This document shows positions 48,859-64,000 of a DNA stretch of 64,000 nt, in pieces (the stretch's first letter is position 1; each line of letters begins with the position of its first letter). The stretch is from Paramecium tetraurelia. Lineage: Eukaryota > Ciliophora > Oligohymenophorea > Peniculida > Parameciidae. The position numbers were made by a program, and so were the translations under genes. Location of the stretch: the NCBI RefSeq assembly GCF_000165425.1, contig NW_001799030.1, positions 1 to 64,000 of the forward strand, read 5' to 3'. Below the pieces are notes generated by a model. The model was not told where the DNA came from. It did no database searches and saw nothing but the letters and a program-made list of their open reading frames with translations.

Positions 48859-50019
48859 ATGAAATCATTCATTGTAGTGGTTGCAATTCTTGCCTTAGCA
48901 TCAGCTTAAAGACTTGATATCAACAGCGCTAGCTGTAACAATTACTTAAAGAAGTTTGGGACAGCTAATAATCCTGATGGATCTGGAGCAACAAAACTTG
49001 CATTCACAGGAGATGTTGCATTTGGAACTGGATCCACTGATGTTAAGGTGAACCTTCGGTATTCCGATGTTGACCTTTTCAATGATGCAACATACTTTGG
49101 TCTTGTTCAAGAAGATGGAAAAACAGCAGCTACCACATGTCTTGACCTTAAATTATGGAAATTCACTTCCAACACCTACTCAGATCCAGTTTAAGTTACT
49201 GATCTTCCCATAACCGCATCAAATAACTTTTAAAAATAATGGAGATACTATACATTCACAATTCCAGGAAAGGATTTAGGAACTAGGTTGGTCACAACAA
49301 CTAATTCCAATTAATTTGTGTACAAAGGCTATTATGCTGTTGCTTATTATGCAGCAGGAACCGACCAAGTCTAGTACACATTTTATTTTGAGTTTCAACT
49401 GACTGTCGACAAGTCAAGCGGTGCCTCCGTTGACACTGCATTCAAGCCATTAACTTAAACGTCAACATTAGGATGTACTCCTAATGCAGCTTGTACCACA
49501 AAAGCTGATACAGTTTTAAAATGGTGCACTGATTTAAATTGCACTGCATTTTCGCAGCCCGATTTACATTTAAATGATCAATTCGTTCTCCAATAAGTCG
49601 TTACAACTGCAAATATGAACTATTATTTGACTGGAACTGAAGTCTGGTATACTGGTAATGGATTGAATAAGAAAGCAACAATAGTTTCAGTTAATAATTC
49701 AGTCAAAGGCCAAGTTATTATCTAATTAAAGGCTGAAATTGCTTGGAGAGCAGTCACAATTAAAGTTACCTCTACTTTATCAACAACTTAAACAGGAGCA
49801 AGAAGAATTTTGGTTTAAACTACCTATGACCCAGTAAGTGGTGAAACATAGCAAATTGAATGTATCAAGGCTCAAGGATCAGAAAAATGTCCAACATGCG
49901 AGGAAGAAAAAAATGCAAATGGATATTCCAGCGATACTTGTGTCGATGGAAATGATGATGATGGCTCTAATGGCTATATCTTAGCAGCAGGATTATTTGC
50001 CATGTTTATAATGGTGTGA
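48859..50019 (+). CDS. Secreted, probably GPI-anchored surface protein (family copy A)
   Basis: Intronless frame, 386 aa, ATG 48859, TGA 50017-50019. It begins with a signal peptide (MKSFIVVVAILALASA) followed by a mature start QRLDIN. The body is Thr/Ser/Asn-rich with few Cys; two Cys pairs lie in the middle and one CPTC near the C-terminus. It ends with an acidic linker and a ~17-residue hydrophobic tail at the stop, fitting a GPI signal. Three further copies lie at 56.7-61.7 kb. The intact copy here differs clearly from the near-identical pair in the inverted repeat. No enzyme motif; probably a surface coat protein. Confidence 0.85.
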
Positions 50020-50221
50020 TTATTTTAATTTGAAGCATTATAAACCAACTAATTATTTTTTTTCATTATTTTTTAGAAATATAAAATGTCATAGAAATTA
50101 TGTAACTTACTTAATAAATGTTTAGATTATAAATTATTCAGAAAATCTTCAAACTTTTTTACTGATGGTGGATAAATTATGGAAATGAGTAATCAAATAT
50201 GAGAATTTAAAATTAATATAT

Positions 50222-51244
50222 TCAGGTTTCTCCTTCAGCTGTTTAATCATTTTCTCCTTCTATTTTAACTCTTCTCCCATTTTCCCAGATTCCAGCTTTT
50301 CTTTCTCCAGTTTCAGTGATGATTACTCCTTTGCCATTTTACTTTCCCAAAGCCCATTCTCCTTCATATCTTTTACCGTTATTCCATGAAAAAACTCCTT
50401 GGCCATGTTTTTTATCGTCTAAATAGTATCCTTTGTAGCTTTTCCCATCTGGCCATACTGTTTCACCATATCCATTCATTTTATTGTTTAACCAATTTCC
50501 TGTGTAAGATTTCCCATCATTCCAGGTATATTTACCTGAACCACTTATTTCATTGTCCAAAAAATCTCCTTCATAAATGCTATTATCTGCAAATTAAAGT
50601 TTTCCCTTTCCATTTTTTTTTCCAAATGTATACATTCCCTTTAGAATTAGAGGATTAATACTTCATATTTAGAGCCATCAGGCCAAACTTCAACTCCTTT
50701 TCCATGCTACTAATCATTCAACCACTCTCCATCGTATTTAGCACCACCAGCATGCACATATGTACCTACCCCATTTGCCATATCATTTGCCCATTATCCT
50801 TCATAAATATCGCCATCTCCATGGACTAAAAATGCTGATGATAACGGAGATACCTAATTTCCCTTTACCCTCAGCTTTATCAGCCTTCCATTCCCCTTCA
50901 TAAAAACCTCCATCAGCCCAAAACTCATATAAATTTTTCAATTTTACATGCAATCCAAAGCCATCCCTCATACAATTGTACCACTCCCCTTCATAATAAC
51001 CTCCATTAATCATGCTTATTCTGGGAAGTTTTTGCCGAATCCCTTTCGTACTCTGAACAAGTTATTAAGATTCATCATTGGCTGGTTTATTGTCCTCTGA
51101 ATAAGAATATAAAAATCAACCATGAGTAAAAGTTTGTGCATCCTATTGTTTCACTTTATCCAATATTTAGTGTTCACTTCCTCCTCTTTGTGTCTATATT
51201 TCTTCTTCCCCTAGCTTTTTAGGAATGCAATTACAACTACCCAT
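50222..51244 (-). CDS. MORN-repeat protein with N-myristoylation signal
   Basis: Four exons (51244-51121, 51096-50854, 50825-50662, 50638-50222; introns 24, 28 and 23 nt) give 315 aa. The protein starts MGSCNC, a strong N-myristoylation plus palmitoylation pattern. An in-frame ATG 36 nt upstream would bury it, so the later start is chosen. After ~55 polar residues come about ten MORN units (YYEGEWYN, YEGQWAND, YTGNWLNNKMNGYG, YKGYYLDDKKHGQG, YEGEWALGK). Likely attached to a membrane or the cortex. It lies 54 bp from the stop of the transporter gene on the same strand. Confidence 0.87.
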
Positions 51245-54327: not shown

Positions 54328-54346
54328 GTATATATAATAATATTTA

Positions 54347-55334
54347 TCACAAAAAATAATCAGGCACAGGGTGCCTACCGATCAGTCCTCTTTATTCTAC
54401 ATTAGCTGCTAAGAAAATTTTGAATTTTTTTTCTAAATTGTCATCTAACTCTAATATTGATGCTTAATTTCCAACGCGATAACAGTAATTTGGAGCACTC
54501 CATACTGTTACTAATTGATCGTCAAACATTGTTTTGTATCCTTCTAGAACAAGCTGATGAGCTCTACATATGAAATCGTAACTATTAGTTTTATTGAATT
54601 CTGTAGTAATGTCTCCTCCAAATATATATCCAGCTCCTCTTGGAGAAACTCCCCATCCATTAATATCTTCAGGATCGCTCCACAATAGGTCACACATAGC
54701 TCCTTCATGTGGAACTTCCTACTTTCGATCTAAAGATTTCACCTTATAAATAGTTACACATAAAGCTTACATCATCTATCTCTACAATATTCGGAGATAA
54801 TCCTCCATGAACACAAAATACTCTGTTTTCAATAACTGCGCTAATCGTCAGATAATCAAAAACATCAGTGCAATACCTCCATACATTTGCAGAACCATAT
54901 TTGCGTTGACATTCATCATAGAATCCATAAACTTAAGTTGTTTGCCTTGATTCATGATTTCCTCTTATTCTTAATAATATTTGTAACCATTACATTGTAA
55001 TTCTATCTGGAAAACGAACTTTGAATGCTAATAGTAAAAGAAATGTTTCAACACTATTAAATCCACGATCAACTAAATCTCCTAAAAAAAGGTAATTAGT
55101 GTCTGGACAATCTCCTCCAACTTTAAATAATTCAATGAGATCATGAAACTGTCCATGAATATCCCCACAAATCTAATAATTGAAAAATATTACTGTGACA
55201 GGAGTATGAACAATCTCGACATTGCTTTCGGAAATAAGAATTTCTTTCGCCTTGGTACACAATTGAATCACTTCTTGTTCGGGTAAAAATTGGCAATTCT
55301 TTAGCTTTGCTATCCATTAATCGAAATCACTCAT
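54347..55334 (-). CDS. PP4-like protein phosphatase catalytic subunit, copy 1
   Basis: Four exons (55334-55194, 55172-54994, 54969-54771, 54742-54347; introns 21, 24 and 28 nt) give 304 aa, normal for PP2A/PP4/PP6. Metal-site motifs GDIHG, GDLVDRG and RGNHES, then [14 protein letters not shown] and a C-terminal HPVPDYFL are all present, so it should be active. [10 protein letters not shown] and the DYFL end favour PP4 (or PP2A) over PP6. The residue Cys usual after YCYR is Val here (YRVGN). Intron 1 is 21 nt with no in-frame TGA, so failing to splice it would keep the frame open. Confidence 0.92.
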
Positions 55335-55344
55335 AAATATTTAT

Positions 55345-56378
55345 TCATAAAAAATAATCAGGAATTGGTTTCTTTGCTGGCAATCCTCTATTTTCTTATG
55401 GGGCCGCTTCAAATATTTTATAAGATTTAGCAAGGTTTTCATCTAATTCAAGAATTGAAGCGACATTCCCGCATCTGATTAAATATCAAAAATTACCTAT
55501 AACAATAATTAGGTGCACTCCAGACTGTCACTAATTATTCATTAAACATAACTCTGTATCCTTCCATCACTAATTGATGAGCTCGACATATCAATTCAAT
55601 ATTATTTTTTCTATTGAAATCATCTACAACGTCTCCACCGAATAAATAGCCTGCCCCTCTTGGAGATAAATTCCATCCCTCAATTTCTAAATAATTCTAA
55701 AATCGAGATACCATCAGGATCGCTCCACATCAAGTCACACATAGCTCCATCATGAGGTACTTCTTATTTACGATCGATTGCTCGAATCTACATAAATAAA
55801 TTTCTAAAACATCATCCATTGTCTTTATCGAAGGTGATAATCCACCATGTACACAAAATATCTTCTCCTCTATAACAGCAGCCAAACTCAAATAATCAAA
55901 AATGTCTGTGCAATATCTCCAAACATTTAATGACCCATATTTTCTTAGACATTCATCATAGAAGCCATACACTTAAGTAATTTATCTAGATTCGTGATTC
56001 CCTCGTATTCTATATAAAATGATTAATTTACAATGTTATTCTGTCTGGATAACGTACTTTCAGAGCTAATAATAATAAAAATGTTTCCACGCTGTTAAAT
56101 CCTCTATCAACAAAGTCACCTAAGAATAAATAGTTAGTGTCTGGGCAATCCCCTCCTACTTTGAATAATTCCATTAAATCAAAGAATTGACCATGAATAT
56201 CTCCACAGATCTGAAATTAATAATATTTTACCGTAACTGGGGCATCAACTCGCTGCACATTGCTTTCTTCAACCAGAATTTCTCTAGCCTTTGTACATAG
56301 TGCTTTAACTTCCCCTTCAGTTATGTTTTCGCAGTTCCTTAATTGAGCTATTTGTCTATCTAAATCAGATTGACTCAT
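55345..56378 (-). CDS. PP4-like protein phosphatase catalytic subunit, copy 2
   Basis: Six exons (56378-56232, 56210-56032, 56009-55811, 55787-55712, 55686-55497, 55474-55345; introns 21, 22, 23, 25 and 22 nt) give 306 aa. [35 protein letters not shown] and a C-terminal [10 protein letters not shown] are intact. The first three introns sit at the same places as in copy 1, while the fourth and fifth are extra, so the pair arose by tandem duplication with later intron loss or gain. Ten bp separate its stop codon from the start codon of copy 1. Confidence 0.93.
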
Positions 56379-56724
56379 TTTTAAATTGGAGAAATATGAA
56401 TTTAATAATAATTAGTTTATAAAATTTGATTCGGAAAATAAAAATGTATCTTCAAAAGAGAAACATAATATTATCAAATGATGAATATACTATAGAAATT
56501 TAGTTTACAACATAATTAAGTTTATAAAATATAAATTGTTGAAAATTTTTCCAAATATGAATATTTAGAGATCTTGGAATTGAAAAAAAAATTGTAGGAG
56601 TAGGAGGGAGCAAAACAATAATATTTTATTAATAAATAGTAATCTTTGGATTACTTTTAGTATACTGAGAATTATGATTGATATTTAATTTACTTTTATA
56701 TGACAAATTTGTATGAAAAATAAA
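56379..56724. other. Intergenic spacer
   Basis: About 345 bp, very AT-rich; holds the promoter of the upstream phosphatase copy by position. Nothing else seen. Confidence 0.4.
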
Positions 56725-57876
56725 TCAAACCAATATTAAAAGCAATAGCACGAAAGCAAATGCTATGATGTTTGAAGATGAGCATGCTCGAGCAATTATC
56801 ACTAGCAAAACCTTAAGCATCACATTATTGATCACAGTCGGGACATGTTTCTGCTCCTTCTGCCTTGATGCATTCTATTGGATCTGTTTGTCCACTTACT
56901 GGATCATATGTAGTTTATTCCAAAAGTCTTCTTCCTCCTGCTTAAGTTGTCGATAAAGTAGAGGTAACTTTAATTGTGACTGATCTCCAAGCAATTTCAG
57001 CCTTTAATTAGATAATAACTTGTCCTTTGACTGAATTATTAACTGAAACTATTGTTGCTTTCTTATTCAATCCATTACCAGTATACCAGACTTCAGTTCC
57101 AGTCAAAAAGTAGTTCATACCTGTGGTTGTAACAACTTGTTGGAGAACAAATTGATCATTTAAATGTAAATCTGGTGTTGCAAATGCAGTACATTATAAA
57201 TCTGTACACCATTTTAAGATTGTATCAGCTTTTGCGTTGCAAGCTGCACCATACTTAACATCCTAAAGTGGCTGTTTGAGTTAATGGCTTAAAGGCGGTA
57301 TCAACCGAAGCACCACTTGCTTTGTCAACAGTGACAGAGAATTCAAAAAAGAAAGTGTATTAAACTTAATCAGTTCCTGCAGCATAATAAGCAACAGCAT
57401 AATAGCCTTTGTAGATAAATTAATTTGAATTTGTCGTTTAAACTAACCTGAGTTCCTAAATCCTTTCCTGGAATTGTGAATGAATAATATCTCCATTATT
57501 TCTAAAAGTTATTTGATGCGGTTATGGGTAAATCAGTAACTTAAACTGGATCTGAGTAGGTATTTGAAGTGAATTTCCATAATTTAAGGTCAAGACATGT
57601 GGTGGCTGCCGTTTTTCCATCTTCTTGAACAAGACCAAAATATGTTGCATCATTGAAGAGATCAACATCGGAATATCTAAGGTTCACCTTAACATCAGTG
57701 GATCCACTAACAAATGCAATATCTCCTGTAAATGCCAACTTTGTTGCTCCAGATCCGTCAGCATTATTAGCTGTTCCAAATTTTTCTAAATATTTATTGC
57801 AGTTCGCAGAGCTACTATCAAGCCTTTAGCCTAAGGTAAAAGCAACTAAGAATGCTACAATGATTATTGTTTTCAT
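56725..57876 (-). pseudogene. Surface-protein family copy B, broken by three +1 frameshifts
   Basis: Starts MKTIIIVAFLVAFTLG and follows the family, but has an extra base near 57450 (ACT-C-AGG where the other copies read ACT AGG/AGA), another near 57250 (TGT followed by ten instead of nine bases before GCAGCTTGC) and a third near 56793 just before the C-terminal tail. The first insertion leads to TGA within about 28 codons. The hydrophobic GPI-type tail and its stop are still recognisable in a shifted frame. Region length 1152 nt equals the intact copies only because three insertions add up to one codon. Same strand as the left repeat copy. Confidence 0.8.
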
Positions 57877-58165
57877 TCTATTATATTAATATTCATAAAA
57901 TTATTATTTTACTTATAAATATGCGCATTTATTCTATCTCCCATTCGTTTAGATAATTTCAGCAAATTGACAAATTATTGAAGCAGGATGGAAAATAGCT
58001 AAATATATGATGGTTCCTTTCTAATACAATTCAAAGAAGTATCTATAACTATTTTTAGACTTCATTTTATTTTATTCAATTATACAATTTTGATTCATAA
58101 TCCAAATTTATTAGAAAATTTTGGAATTTTACATTTTAATCTAATTAATGGTTTTAAGCTAAATG
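57877..58165. other. Intergenic spacer before inverted repeat
   Basis: About 290 bp of AT-rich DNA between copy B and the left repeat arm; nothing seen. Confidence 0.4.
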
Positions 58166-59508
58166 ATAATAAATATGTAGTATTAATTTAAATGAATGGT
58201 AAATGATTGGACATATATTAATAAATCAAATTGTAAATGCTAATAATAAAGCCATGAAAACAAAGGTGATGATTTTTGAAAATGAGCATTCTGAACAGCT
58301 ATCACTAGCAAAACCTTAAGCAGCACATTCTTGATCACAGTCGGGACATTTTTCTGCTCCTTCAGCTTTGATGCATTCTAGTTCATTAGTTTCACCACTT
58401 ACTGCATCATATGTAGTTTAAGCCAAAAGTCTTCTTGCTCCTGTTTAGGTGTTCGATAAAGTAGAGGTAACTTTAATTGTGACTGATCTCCAAGCAATTT
58501 CAGCCTTTAATTAGATAATAACTTGGCCTTTGACTGAATTATTAACTGAAACTATTGTTGCTTTCTTATTCAATCCATTACCAGTATACCAGACTTCAGT
58601 TCCAGTCAAAAAGTAGTTCATATTTAGAGTTGTAACAACTTATTGTAGAACGAATTGATCATTTAAATGCAAATCTGGTGTTGCAAATGCAGTGCAATTT
58701 AAATCTGTACACCATTTTAAGGTTGTATCTGCTTTTGTGACGCAAGCTGCATTAGGAGTACATCCTATTGTTGATGATTAACTTAATGGCTTGAATGCTG
58801 TATCAACTGAAGCACCAGTTGCTCTATCAATAGTGACAGAGAATTCAAAATAGAAAGTGTATTAAACTTAATCAGTTCCTGCTGCATAATAAGAAATAGC
58901 ATAATAGCCTTTGTAAATGAATTAATTAGAATTTGTTGTTTAAACTAATCTAGTTTCTAACTCCTTTCCTGGAATTGTGAATGTATAGTATCTCCATTAT
59001 TTTTAAAAGTTATTTGAAGCGGTTATGGGTAAATCAGTAACTTATACTGGATTAGAATAACTATTTGAAGTGAATTTCCATAATTTTAGGTCAAGACATG
59101 TGGTGGCTGCTGTTTTTCCATCTTCTTGAACAAGACCAAAATATGTTGCATCATTGAAGAGATCAACATCGGAATATCTAAGGTTCACCTTAACATCAGT
59201 GGATCCACTAACAAATGCAATATCTCCTGTAAATGCCAACTTTGTTGCTCCAGTTCCATCAGGATTATTAGCTGTTCCAAATTTTTGTAAATATTTATTG
59301 CAGTTCTCGGAGTTAATATCAAGCCTTTAACCTAAGGTAAAAGCAACTAAGAATGCTACAATGATTATTGTTTTCATGTTAATTAAAATAATACTATAAT
59401 CTCATTTTAAACCAAGCTAAAATCCTAAATTTTTATATTTTTTTAATCGATATTCTATTTGATATTTGTAATATATATTTAGAAATTAATTTTTTTCATT
59501 TTTTGCTT
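58166..59508. repeat. Left arm of large inverted repeat
   Basis: 1343 bp whose reverse complement matches 60452-61795. In all segments compared the arms agree base for base, save for one extra C in the right arm. The arm contains the whole surface-protein gene plus about 60 bp beyond its stop and about 130 bp upstream of its start. Confidence 0.9.
58226..59377 (-). CDS. Secreted, probably GPI-anchored surface protein (left repeat copy)
   Basis: Intact 383-aa frame (ATG 59375-59377, TGA 58226-58228), no introns. Signal peptide MKTIIIVAFLVAFTLG, then QRLDIN; central Cys pairs; a C-terminal CPDC..C cluster and a hydrophobic tail ending ALLLAFTI at the stop, as in GPI-anchor signals. Closely related to copy A at 48.9 kb in the middle and more different at the tail. 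Located wholly within the left repeat arm, so promoter and terminator are shared with the right copy. Confidence 0.87.
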
Positions 59509-60451
59509 AATCAATATGAAATAGTGATTTTAAAGAATTTTATTAACTACCCTTCCGAATAGTCACCCATTTAAGATCCCATTTAATTATATTCAATTTG
59601 AAGTATTCATTTATTCATGTTTAAAGTTTCCCTAATCTTTTGTTACTTAATATATTAACATTTAATCATAAGATTAGTTTCTTTACAATCTACTATTGGA
59701 TTTAAATAGATCGAATTCATTCTTTCTGACTATTATTTCTTCTAACAACTGGAAATATTATATTGGCGCCAAATTTTTAAATTATTGATCCAATTTTTTC
59801 TACTTTATTTTAATATCGACTATTAGTTTTATAATTTCAAACTAATCAATAGCAAAATCATATAAAAGGTATTATAGAAAAAATTCTCAATAATACTAAT
59901 TTTTAATCAAGGATTACATACGTCAGATGGAGTGAGTCTAATGGAAAGAAATAAAATATAAAGAAAAGTAAGATAGATAGATAAAATCAAATATCATGAA
60001 TTCACCATTATTATTCTATGGTTGTTCATTCTATATATTCAAATTTTTATTTATCCAAAAGATTTATAAAATATATTATACTTCTTTATTATGAATTTTT
60101 ATTTTATTGTATTCTAATTATCTGATCAATTAATAGTCTTGTCCTTTAACATTAAGATAAGCCATTAATCATTATCTTAATAATTTATCTCCAAGCAAAT
60201 AAAGGCACAAAGGAGATAACTCAGCATTTTAGTTTTGAAATTATTAAAACTAAAATTCTATTGATTAAATCAAAACCCTTAACCTTATCTGCCATCATAA
60301 CTTAATTTTTAGAATAAATTAATGTATATTATTATGTATAAAACTTTACAATTATTCATTCAAATTCAATTAATGTATCATTATAATGCTATCTTAATGG
60401 AAGGATAAGTTTATAAGAATTATAAGAAATCTTTTTAATAAGGATGATTTA
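59509..60451. other. Spacer between the inverted-repeat arms
   Basis: 943 bp, very AT-rich, no gene supported. It lies between two divergent gene copies, so it would hold any promoter elements beyond the ~130 bp kept in each arm. Confidence 0.6.
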
Positions 60452-61795
60452 AAGCAAAAAATGAAAAAAATTAATTTCTAAATATATATTACAAATATCA
60501 AATAGAATATCGATTAAAAAAATATAAAAATTTAGGATTTTAGCTTGGTTTAAAATGAGATTATAGTATTATTTTAATTAACATGAAAACAATAATCATT
60601 GTAGCATTCTTAGTTGCTTTTACCTTAGGTTAAAGGCTTGATATTAACTCCGAGAACTGCAATAAATATTTACAAAAATTTGGAACAGCTAATAATCCTG
60701 ATGGAACTGGAGCAACAAAGTTGGCATTTACAGGAGATATTGCATTTGTTAGTGGATCCACTGATGTTAAGGTGAACCTTAGATATTCCGATGTTGATCT
60801 CTTCAATGATGCAACATATTTTGGTCTTGTTCAAGAAGATGGAAAAACAGCAGCCACCACATGTCTTGACCTAAAATTATGGAAATTCACTTCAAATAGT
60901 TATTCTAATCCAGTATAAGTTACTGATTTACCCATAACCCGCTTCAAATAACTTTTAAAAATAATGGAGATACTATACATTCACAATTCCAGGAAAGGAG
61001 TTAGAAACTAGATTAGTTTAAACAACAAATTCTAATTAATTCATTTACAAAGGCTATTATGCTATTTCTTATTATGCAGCAGGAACTGATTAAGTTTAAT
61101 ACACTTTCTATTTTGAATTCTCTGTCACTATTGATAGAGCAACTGGTGCTTCAGTTGATACAGCATTCAAGCCATTAAGTTAATCATCAACAATAGGATG
61201 TACTCCTAATGCAGCTTGCGTCACAAAAGCAGATACAACCTTAAAATGGTGTACAGATTTAAATTGCACTGCATTTGCAACACCAGATTTGCATTTAAAT
61301 GATCAATTCGTTCTACAATAAGTTGTTACAACTCTAAATATGAACTACTTTTTGACTGGAACTGAAGTCTGGTATACTGGTAATGGATTGAATAAGAAAG
61401 CAACAATAGTTTCAGTTAATAATTCAGTCAAAGGCCAAGTTATTATCTAATTAAAGGCTGAAATTGCTTGGAGATCAGTCACAATTAAAGTTACCTCTAC
61501 TTTATCGAACACCTAAACAGGAGCAAGAAGACTTTTGGCTTAAACTACATATGATGCAGTAAGTGGTGAAACTAATGAACTAGAATGCATCAAAGCTGAA
61601 GGAGCAGAAAAATGTCCCGACTGTGATCAAGAATGTGCTGCTTAAGGTTTTGCTAGTGATAGCTGTTCAGAATGCTCATTTTCAAAAATCATCACCTTTG
61701 TTTTCATGGCTTTATTATTAGCATTTACAATTTGATTTATTAATATATGTCCAATCATTTACCATTCATTTAAATTAATACTACATATTTATTAT
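60452..61795. repeat. Right arm of large inverted repeat
   Basis: 1344 bp, reverse complement of 58166-59508 with one additional C within 60938-60940. Ends sharply on both sides. Confidence 0.9.
60583..61735 (+). pseudogene. Surface-protein gene, right repeat copy with 1-bp insertion
   Basis: Same gene as the left arm copy, but a third C at 60938-60940 (ATAACCCGC instead of ATAACCGC) shifts the frame after residue 118, leading to TGA about 50 codons later. Total 1153 nt against 1152 nt in the left copy. All the rest of the reading frame, tail and stop are preserved. It may be a sequencing or assembly error in an otherwise functional copy, or a very recent inactivation. Confidence 0.8.
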
Positions 61796-62682
61796 TATCA
61801 TGGTCATTTTGTCTTAAGGTTACTTTACCTTATCGTTAAATTTAAGTTGAGTAACTTAATTTCTCTAGGATTATCTAAAAGAACTTATGCAAAAGATTTC
61901 AATTGAAACAGAGTAATTTAATTTAAAGCTAATTTACCTATTATTGGATTATCGCTCAAGTTATTGTTATAATATATTCAATTTATATTTGCTACATATT
62001 ATGTATCTCTTTTATATATGATAATATTGAAAACTATTATTTCAAAATTAATTACTATCGATAATAAATTGTAAAAGCATTAAGACTAACTATTTTTTAT
62101 AGTATATTTTGATTTAGGAACTATTTTTATTTTAAATTGTGATTTAAATGATCTGTAATGATATAAAAATATCAACTCACATCTTCACGATCTAAATTTA
62201 CTTCCTTCCTAATTAATGTTCTTTAAGCTACAAATAATCAAGTGATAAACATTTTTTCGTTAAGAAACTAAGAAAATCAAATAGACTATGTTTCCAAAGT
62301 ACAATAAATTCTTATTTGAGAATTGTATATAAAGCTCTGTAAATTTGATTTGTCCATCTAATGTAAAAAAACAATCTAACAAGTTAATTTATTTTTGAGA
62401 TTGGTGCTATTCATTTAAATTGAATTGGAAAGCATCAATAAATTCTTTTACAAAAGGAATTATTCCTTTCCATTAAAGAGAATTTTTGGATACCTTCAAC
62501 CTATTCTTCTTTTATACTTATGTAAAGTTAAAAACATGATCTCATTAAAAACTTTCAATTCCACATAATAATATATAGAAAGCATAATGAGCTACTAACC
62601 CTTAAGTAGGTAAAGAAAGGGAAAAATATGCTGGATTGTGCAAAATAATTAATAGAATAATAAATCAGCTATTTTTAAATAA
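61796..62682 (-). pseudogene. Gene-free region with possible EF-hand remnant
   Basis: About 890 bp. On the minus strand at roughly 62150-62470 an open stretch contains LDGQIKFTEL after a hydrophobic helix, similar to the second half of an EF-hand calcium loop, but the first Ca-binding positions are incomplete and TGA codons surround it. Only a weak hint of a decayed calmodulin-like gene. The remainder shows nothing. Confidence 0.25.
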
Positions 62683-63592
62683 TCAAATAGCAATTACTAC
62701 AGTCTGTTTGCAAATAGGGCAGTTATTATGCTACAATAACCAACTTTTGATGCATTTAGAGTGGTAATAATGATTGCATCCCAGTTTTCGATATTTCTCA
62801 CCTATTTCCATGTTGCATTGACAAACTGGGCAGACTCCTTAGATATTGTCACTTTGTTGAATAACTCTTTTACGAATTCTTCTGATATCTTCCCTTGCTA
62901 TGCCATTTGACACATTTCTGATAATATTAAATTTAAGAATACCCGATCTAATCTTCCAACTATAGCAATTATTCATAACTCATGTTGTCTACATCAATGG
63001 CTTGAGTTTAATATTGACGTAGTCTTTATTATTGTTATAAAAGTGGCAGCACTTGGGCTGTCATTCTTAGTTAAAGAAGAAGTGCCCTCATTTCCAATAA
63101 TTATTGAAATGGATCATGTTAATGTTATTGGTGCTATGATTATATTTCCTAACATTTTTTTTTGTAATCTTTTTTCTTGCCTTTCAATTTAATAATTAGG
63201 TCCTTTTGGTGTTTTATTTCCTTATCCTTAACATCAATTTTCGAAATAAAATAATCAATTTCTTCTTCTCTTTTCTTCAGTTCTCTTTCTAGTTATTTAT
63301 TAAGCTATGAGAAGAATAAGAATTATAATACTTCACTCATATTTGAAATTTTTTTATCATATTCATAACACTTATCCTTCAATTGCTATCTTAGTTGTTC
63401 ATTTTCATTCAAAAGTTTTTTTTATTCATCTTTACTAAATATAGTTCAATTTATATCAATACGTAAGTAGATTTGAAGTATTTTCTAATTAAGCTTGTTA
63501 GACTGGGGACTATTGGGGAATCTTACTCACAGGTTTTTGTGGAACTGTAATGAAATATATATTTTACTTGTTTCAATCTTTTGTTTTTACAT
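62683..63592 (-). CDS. RING-H2 E3 ubiquitin ligase with coiled coil
   Basis: Introns at 63545-63567 (23), 63435-63462 (28), 63305-63331 (27) and 62918-62942 (25 nt) give 268 aa. The N-terminus is polar, then a long coiled coil (~residues 30-115), a Gln-rich stretch, the block MSYEQLLQLEDQIGNVS, which is conserved just before the RING in BIG BROTHER/RNF-type ligases, and a C-terminal RING-H2: CPVC, CNHYYHSKC, CPIC (C3H2C3). The 27-nt intron has no stop and no phase effect; keeping it would add nine residues inside the coiled coil (277 aa). By family an E3 ubiquitin ligase. Confidence 0.87.
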
Positions 63593-64000
63593 TACTGTAG
63601 ACCTACGAATAGTAAACTTCTTGGTTTATTACATTGATATATTAATTAATATTTTATTTATAATAATTTTTACATGCAATATATCGATTTATATTCATAT
63701 TTTAGATTACAAACGTTCACAAATAGAATGCAGATGCAAGGCGGAGAAACAAAATGAGAAAACTTTTAGAACATAAGCACAAATTCAAAGTTATTTATTG
63801 TGTGGAACATCACAACGAAGATGTGATAAGATAATATGTGCAATCGCATTGATTTCAAATCCTAAATTTATTTTCCAAATGAGACAAACCTTTGGTTTAT
63901 TTCATTAAAGGGATTGAATAATATCAGGTTCAATGAGATTTGAAGACTTAGAATAATAATTATTAGATTGACTGAAACCTAAAGAAAACGTTTAAAACCA
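63593..64000. other. Right edge, no supported gene
   Basis: About 400 bp upstream of the RING gene. Plus-strand reading frames from about 63700 to 63900 are open in part and could be the first exon of a gene beyond the window, but no start or family can be fixed. Confidence 0.3.

Follow-up and report, generated by a model that had tools for sequence, protein, structure and literature searches.

Paralogous genes that lie as divergent or convergent pairs on inverted repeats have been described in Caenorhabditis, where they face opposite ways across a short spacer and where arms of up to 100% identity, intergenic DNA included, have led to the proposal of gene conversion (as outlined in PMC1803023). 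The palindromes of the human Y chromosome offer a second precedent, as their arm identity of more than 99.9% is attributed to gene conversion in the parts of PMC3723533 on which we draw. In Paramecium, the paralogs that stem from whole-genome duplication are described as undergoing widespread gene conversion (PMC11334263 and PMC10195154, each used in part). We found a comparable structure in a window of 64,000 nucleotides (the whole stretch of DNA that was analysed, which starts at one end of the 199,358-bp contig C77): two paralogous genes for a small putative surface protein are set in opposite orientation around a short spacer, on arms that are near-identical up to and including their non-coding edges. 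As in both precedents, gene conversion is the explanation that we propose. With a probability of roughly 55%, sequence comparisons favour an older pair of head-to-head genes that would have been homogenised by conversion, which is an ordinary kind of event for such gene families. The open-access literature on inverted repeats, gene conversion, surface and GPI proteins and small RNAs in Paramecium describes no such family or pair in its titles and the opening parts of its abstracts.

An inverted repeat with one intact and one apparently broken gene copy

The left arm (58163..59508, minus strand) comprises 131 bp of upstream sequence, one whole gene and 63 bp of downstream sequence, and the right arm (60452..61798, plus strand) repeats this unit in inverted orientation beyond a spacer of 943 bp (59509..60451), of which roughly the first 100 bp on either side show weak mutual homology. 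Over 1343 aligned bp, not one substitution separates the arms, and the right arm contains one additional base, a C in the CCC run at 60938..60940 (plus strand), which is the sole difference between them. When searched as DNA against the complete assembly (231 contigs, 69.07 Mb; such searches give lower bounds), the arm is found at full length and 100% identity at two positions, which are the two arms themselves. The next-best matches reach 90% and 87% (near 57 and 49 kb of the same contig), followed by 77% on contig C221, 76% on contig C49 and lower values. Alignment and genome search together confirm the near-identical inverted arms, the one extra C and the 943-bp spacer of the original prediction, and the inverted repeat is a genuine feature of the assembled sequence. 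The word "divergent", which had been applied to its genes, is right for their head-to-head orientation, but not for their sequences, as the arms are practically identical.

Of the eight pairs returned by a BLAST self-comparison of the 199-kb contig, the arms alone are both inverted and near-perfect. Besides them, this comparison shows just one near-identical pair, a 508-bp direct repeat of 99.6% identity outside the window (177042-177549 and 181062-181569 of C77). Elsewhere in the genome, the spacer has a single match, 71 bp at 80% on contig C205, in a search that skips simple repeats and very common words; the matching part is the stretch of about 70 bp at 60035-60102. A transposon was considered as well and rejected, as neither the spacer nor the arms have dispersed copies outside the gene family. 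Within the 64-kb window, neither Rfam at gathering thresholds nor ARAGORN (bacterial code) gave a match.

The left gene (58226..59377, minus strand) is intact under the ciliate code and has an open frame of 383 codons (58229-59377), followed by its stop codon at 58226-58228. Its counterpart on the right arm (60583..61735, plus strand) is the same sequence except for the extra C, which sits within the coding region and causes the frame to end after 168 codons, at a TGA at 61087-61089. Each arm had been expected to carry a complete copy; as assembled, the right copy is apparently incomplete, unless the extra C is an assembly error. The right copy is thus either a young pseudogene or, if the additional base is such an error, a second working copy.

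The protein encoded by the left gene begins with a hydrophobic, signal-like stretch and ends in a hydrophobic tail with a mean hydropathy of 2.8 over the last 15 residues, which makes it a tail of the GPI type as judged by hydropathy. It contains 12 cysteines (3.1% of 383 aa). Compared with the family copy near 49 kb, the gene has a dN/dS of 0.26 (dS 0.52), a sign of purifying selection. Its product is probably a secreted, GPI-anchored protein under purifying selection, and from its sequence we infer a location at the cell surface. Searches for known relatives of the left-arm protein gave sub-cut-off matches only in Pfam and two unconvincing matches in a PDB profile search (best E 1.3), and an AlphaFold2 model built from two window proteins had a mean pLDDT of 42.7, which is too low to support a search for similar folds.

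Host genome and gene family

Reading TAA and TAG as glutamine opens the genes between 55 and 64 kb, where the standard code yields only two open frames of at least 80 aa. A bacterial-code reading of the genes was considered and rejected. The right end of the contig carries TTTGGG/TTGGGG telomere repeats; no telomere was found in the window, which starts at the contig's other end. Code and telomere point to a macronuclear genome of the Paramecium type.

A protein search of this genome returned at least 31 stretches that match the family. The frame is uninterrupted in 11 of the 15 copies examined; besides the right-arm copy, three of the 14 others are interrupted (the copy near 57 kb, C49_197 and C49_188), and unrecognised short introns may account for the interruptions in the two copies on C49. 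Pfam searches with 11 family members found scattered, unrelated models (best E 0.0071) and no convincing relative. The surface-protein genes are a clustered family without a convincing Pfam match, outside the classical giant serotype antigens.

Two further members lie in the window. The third copy (56744..57891, minus strand; 90% DNA identity), which forms a tandem with the left gene, is a pseudogene whose frame changes at least twice, and it shares exact runs of 142, 96, 73 and 47 bp with the left-arm gene. The fourth copy (48859..50019, plus strand) is intact, encodes 386 aa with 80% protein identity and has a tract that is identical at silent sites to the left-arm gene. In a tree of the family, the four copies on C77 cluster together (support 0.997), and five of the seven included copies on C49 form a cluster of their own (support 1.000). 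Among C49_186, C49_190 and C49_195, which are mosaic genes, dN/dS ranges from 0.74 to 0.98. At three places, a family member adjoins a MORN-repeat gene (48859-51100 in the window, 197-200 kb on C49 and 5.7-7.4 kb on C174), with the arrangement inverted on C49; this adjacency looks like synteny from whole-genome duplication.

Proposed gene conversion and its alternatives

Duplication, ongoing conversion and an assembly artefact had been named side by side as possible origins of the arm identity, and conversion is the best supported of the three. C49_190 and C49_195, which are likewise divergent and inverted, share exact runs of 382, 219, 101, 65 and 52 bp that alternate with windows of 20-70% identity, and a permutation of their silent-site runs gives p 0.0005. 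A run of 48 consecutive codons is identical at silent sites between the left gene and the copy near 49 kb (permutation p 0.0001); for the remaining three pairs tested in this way, p was 0.64-0.70. Both the mosaic pair on C49 and this silent-site run speak for conversion within the family.

At the arms themselves, the starting state would have been two paralogous small surface-protein genes that stood head to head within the family cluster. Conversion would then have copied some 1.35 kb, made up of the gene with 131 bp upstream and 63 bp downstream, from one onto the other, which would have left identical arms next to a spacer that retains its older divergence. The right copy would later have gained one base and thereby lost its frame, provided that the base is not a mistake of the assembly. 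We infer conversion as the cause at the arm pair, and with it the germline setting and the direction in which the copy would have been made.

A single recent inverted segmental duplication, by which 1.35 kb with one gene would have been set down as an inverted copy at a distance of about 1 kb, at a site with no prior gene, is a possible but clearly less probable origin. The complete identity of the arms, their non-coding edges included, and their sharp ends would suit such an event, as would the outer flanks, which show no homology to each other. The inner flanks, in contrast, speak weakly against it. Across the two sides of the spacer, identity drops to 69 of 109 alignment columns, and the anchored score of 49 has p 0.0013 and 0.0020 when the null consists of GC-matched C77 stretches (1500 each), and p 0.0004 when it consists of 2500 stretches with less than 30% GC. 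Varying the length gives p 0.0025-0.005 for 60-110 nt and p 0.02 for 200 nt. Of six small tests under different scorings, four had the signal reached by 0 of 60 null draws and two by 1 of 60. The comparison was prompted by an earlier BLAST extension and concerns an AT-rich region, in which even an unrelated-looking AT-rich pair (the left inner flank and C221) still aligns at 57%; the homology signal is modest, and its weakness counts in turn for a fresh duplication.

The right inner flank furthermore resembles the 5' flank of the family copy on C221 (score 68, reached by 0 of 300 null draws), at a nearly equal distance from the start codon (135 versus 131 nt). C221 was the best among nine copies tried, which corrects p from 0.003 to about 0.03, and the left inner flank has no match to the same 5' flank (score 27). 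This likeness to another copy, together with the conversion that is evident elsewhere in the family, argues against a fresh duplication. Comparisons of the flanks of the 57-kb copy with those of both arms yielded no score above the best of 200 shuffles, the highest being that of its 3' flank with the right outer flank (43, shuffle maximum 46), and the downstream flanks of seven other copies gave best raw scores of 12-50 against the outer flanks, as values without a null. A 29-bp repeat (D6), considered as a trace of a tandem unit, was not significant.

An assembly or polishing artefact, in which the arms were falsely made identical or the right arm was falsely placed, is unlikely. Identical arms of 1.34 kb are a blind spot for short-read polishing, and the sole difference between the arms is an indel in a short C run. 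Taken by itself, the extra C may be a leftover read error, one that polishing was unable to remove from an identical repeat; against this, three of the 14 other copies are also interrupted, and broken copies are not unusual. The arms as a whole have four different flanks and a unique spacer, and relatives of the neighbours from both sides surround the same family on C49, all of which is at odds with an artefact. The family cluster on C49 sits between matches to the left and right neighbours on C77: 173.9-175.0 kb of C49 matches the right-side stretch 62650-63713 at 74%, 199.3-200.0 kb matches the MORN gene (50226-50876) at 80.6%, and 200.7-202.8 kb matches the left-side phosphatase pair (54337-56400) at 86%. 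As both sides of the repeat share one neighbourhood there, a mis-join appears unlikely. The gene order on C49 differs from that on C77, and 53000-54028 matches C185 instead, so that rearrangements have happened. The phosphatase genes of the window (54479-56297) are two serine/threonine phosphatase genes in tandem, with 73% DNA identity to each other.

The event behind the repeat had been called very recent, which holds in a relative sense only. At rates of 1.94-2.44e-11 substitutions per site and division, as given for Paramecium in the part of PMC11334263 that we used, 0 changes in 1343 bp place the last homogenisation at no more than about 4.6-5.8e7 cell divisions ago (95% upper bound). With rates as low as these, and with 0 changes compatible with so many divisions, the identity of the arms says little about their age.

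Silencing, switching and comparison with known systems

Both genes run outward from the spacer. Transcription away from it gives two mRNAs of like sense, which are unable to pair with each other, and the gene pair by itself forms no hairpin RNA. Double-stranded RNA from read-through, as suggested by the original prediction, therefore does not arise from the geometry itself; fold-back would require a transcript that enters from outside and runs across both arms, and the orientation of the genes makes such a transcript unlikely. A possible source would be read-through from the gene on the right, provided that it lies on the minus strand, as a long coiled-coil-like frame suggests.

We consider it very unlikely that the right copy, newly converted and with its frame broken, serves as a natural siRNA trigger that sets the expression of the whole family in trans, with conversion keeping the trigger matched to its target and with a transcript that is faulty or comes from outside across the arms. 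Similarly improbable is a regulatory locus at which the broken copy, or an outside transcript across the arms, silences the family in trans through siRNA. In favour of such a role, truncated transgenes trigger trans-silencing in Paramecium, and the authors note in the part consulted of PMC4937312 that a pseudogene could trigger siRNA too; in one serotype, 117 of 2435 small-RNA clusters (about 5%) lie in pseudogenes (according to the portion of PMC6735861 used here). Against it stand the outward genes with their non-complementary mRNAs and a 261-nt piece of the spacer that is not unusually structured when folded (z -0.51). An inversion switch, with expression altered when the arms recombine and the spacer is turned round, is barely conceivable: identical inverted arms can in principle recombine, but the flip would swap near-identical arms and change only the context more than 131 bp upstream, and a scan of ten nearby reading frames found no recombinase domain at E 0.01. 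Antigen switching likewise finds no support, as the protein is without the tested serotype-antigen features of size and cysteine content.

The Paramecium surface antigens (SAg), as characterised in the sections of PMC9788069 that we drew on, resemble the present family in their GPI-type tail and in their duplicates on one chromosome. They are, however, proteins of high molecular mass, screened at more than 1000 aa, whereas the left protein has 383 aa; and they carry periodic cysteines at more than 10%, in contrast to 3.1% here. The Caenorhabditis structure has been shown in three species (as outlined in PMC1803023), whereas the present case comes from one genome and has one broken copy and a 943-bp spacer. 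Human Y palindromes are large and lie on a sex chromosome (by the account in PMC3723533), while the repeat described here holds one gene per arm and belongs to a ciliate. The whole-genome-duplication paralogs of Paramecium are homogenised in the same kind of genome; the conversion reports, in the parts used of PMC11334263 and PMC10195154, concern pairs from genome duplication, whereas ours is a local inverted pair. The locus belongs to a multigene family of GPI-type proteins outside the classical serotype antigens, a family that seems to evolve by local conversion on two related chromosomes. According to PMC11334263, how often and in what pattern gene conversion occurs within the chromosomes of Paramecium is almost wholly uncharted, and pairs like these arms would allow intrachromosomal gene conversion in Paramecium to be measured.
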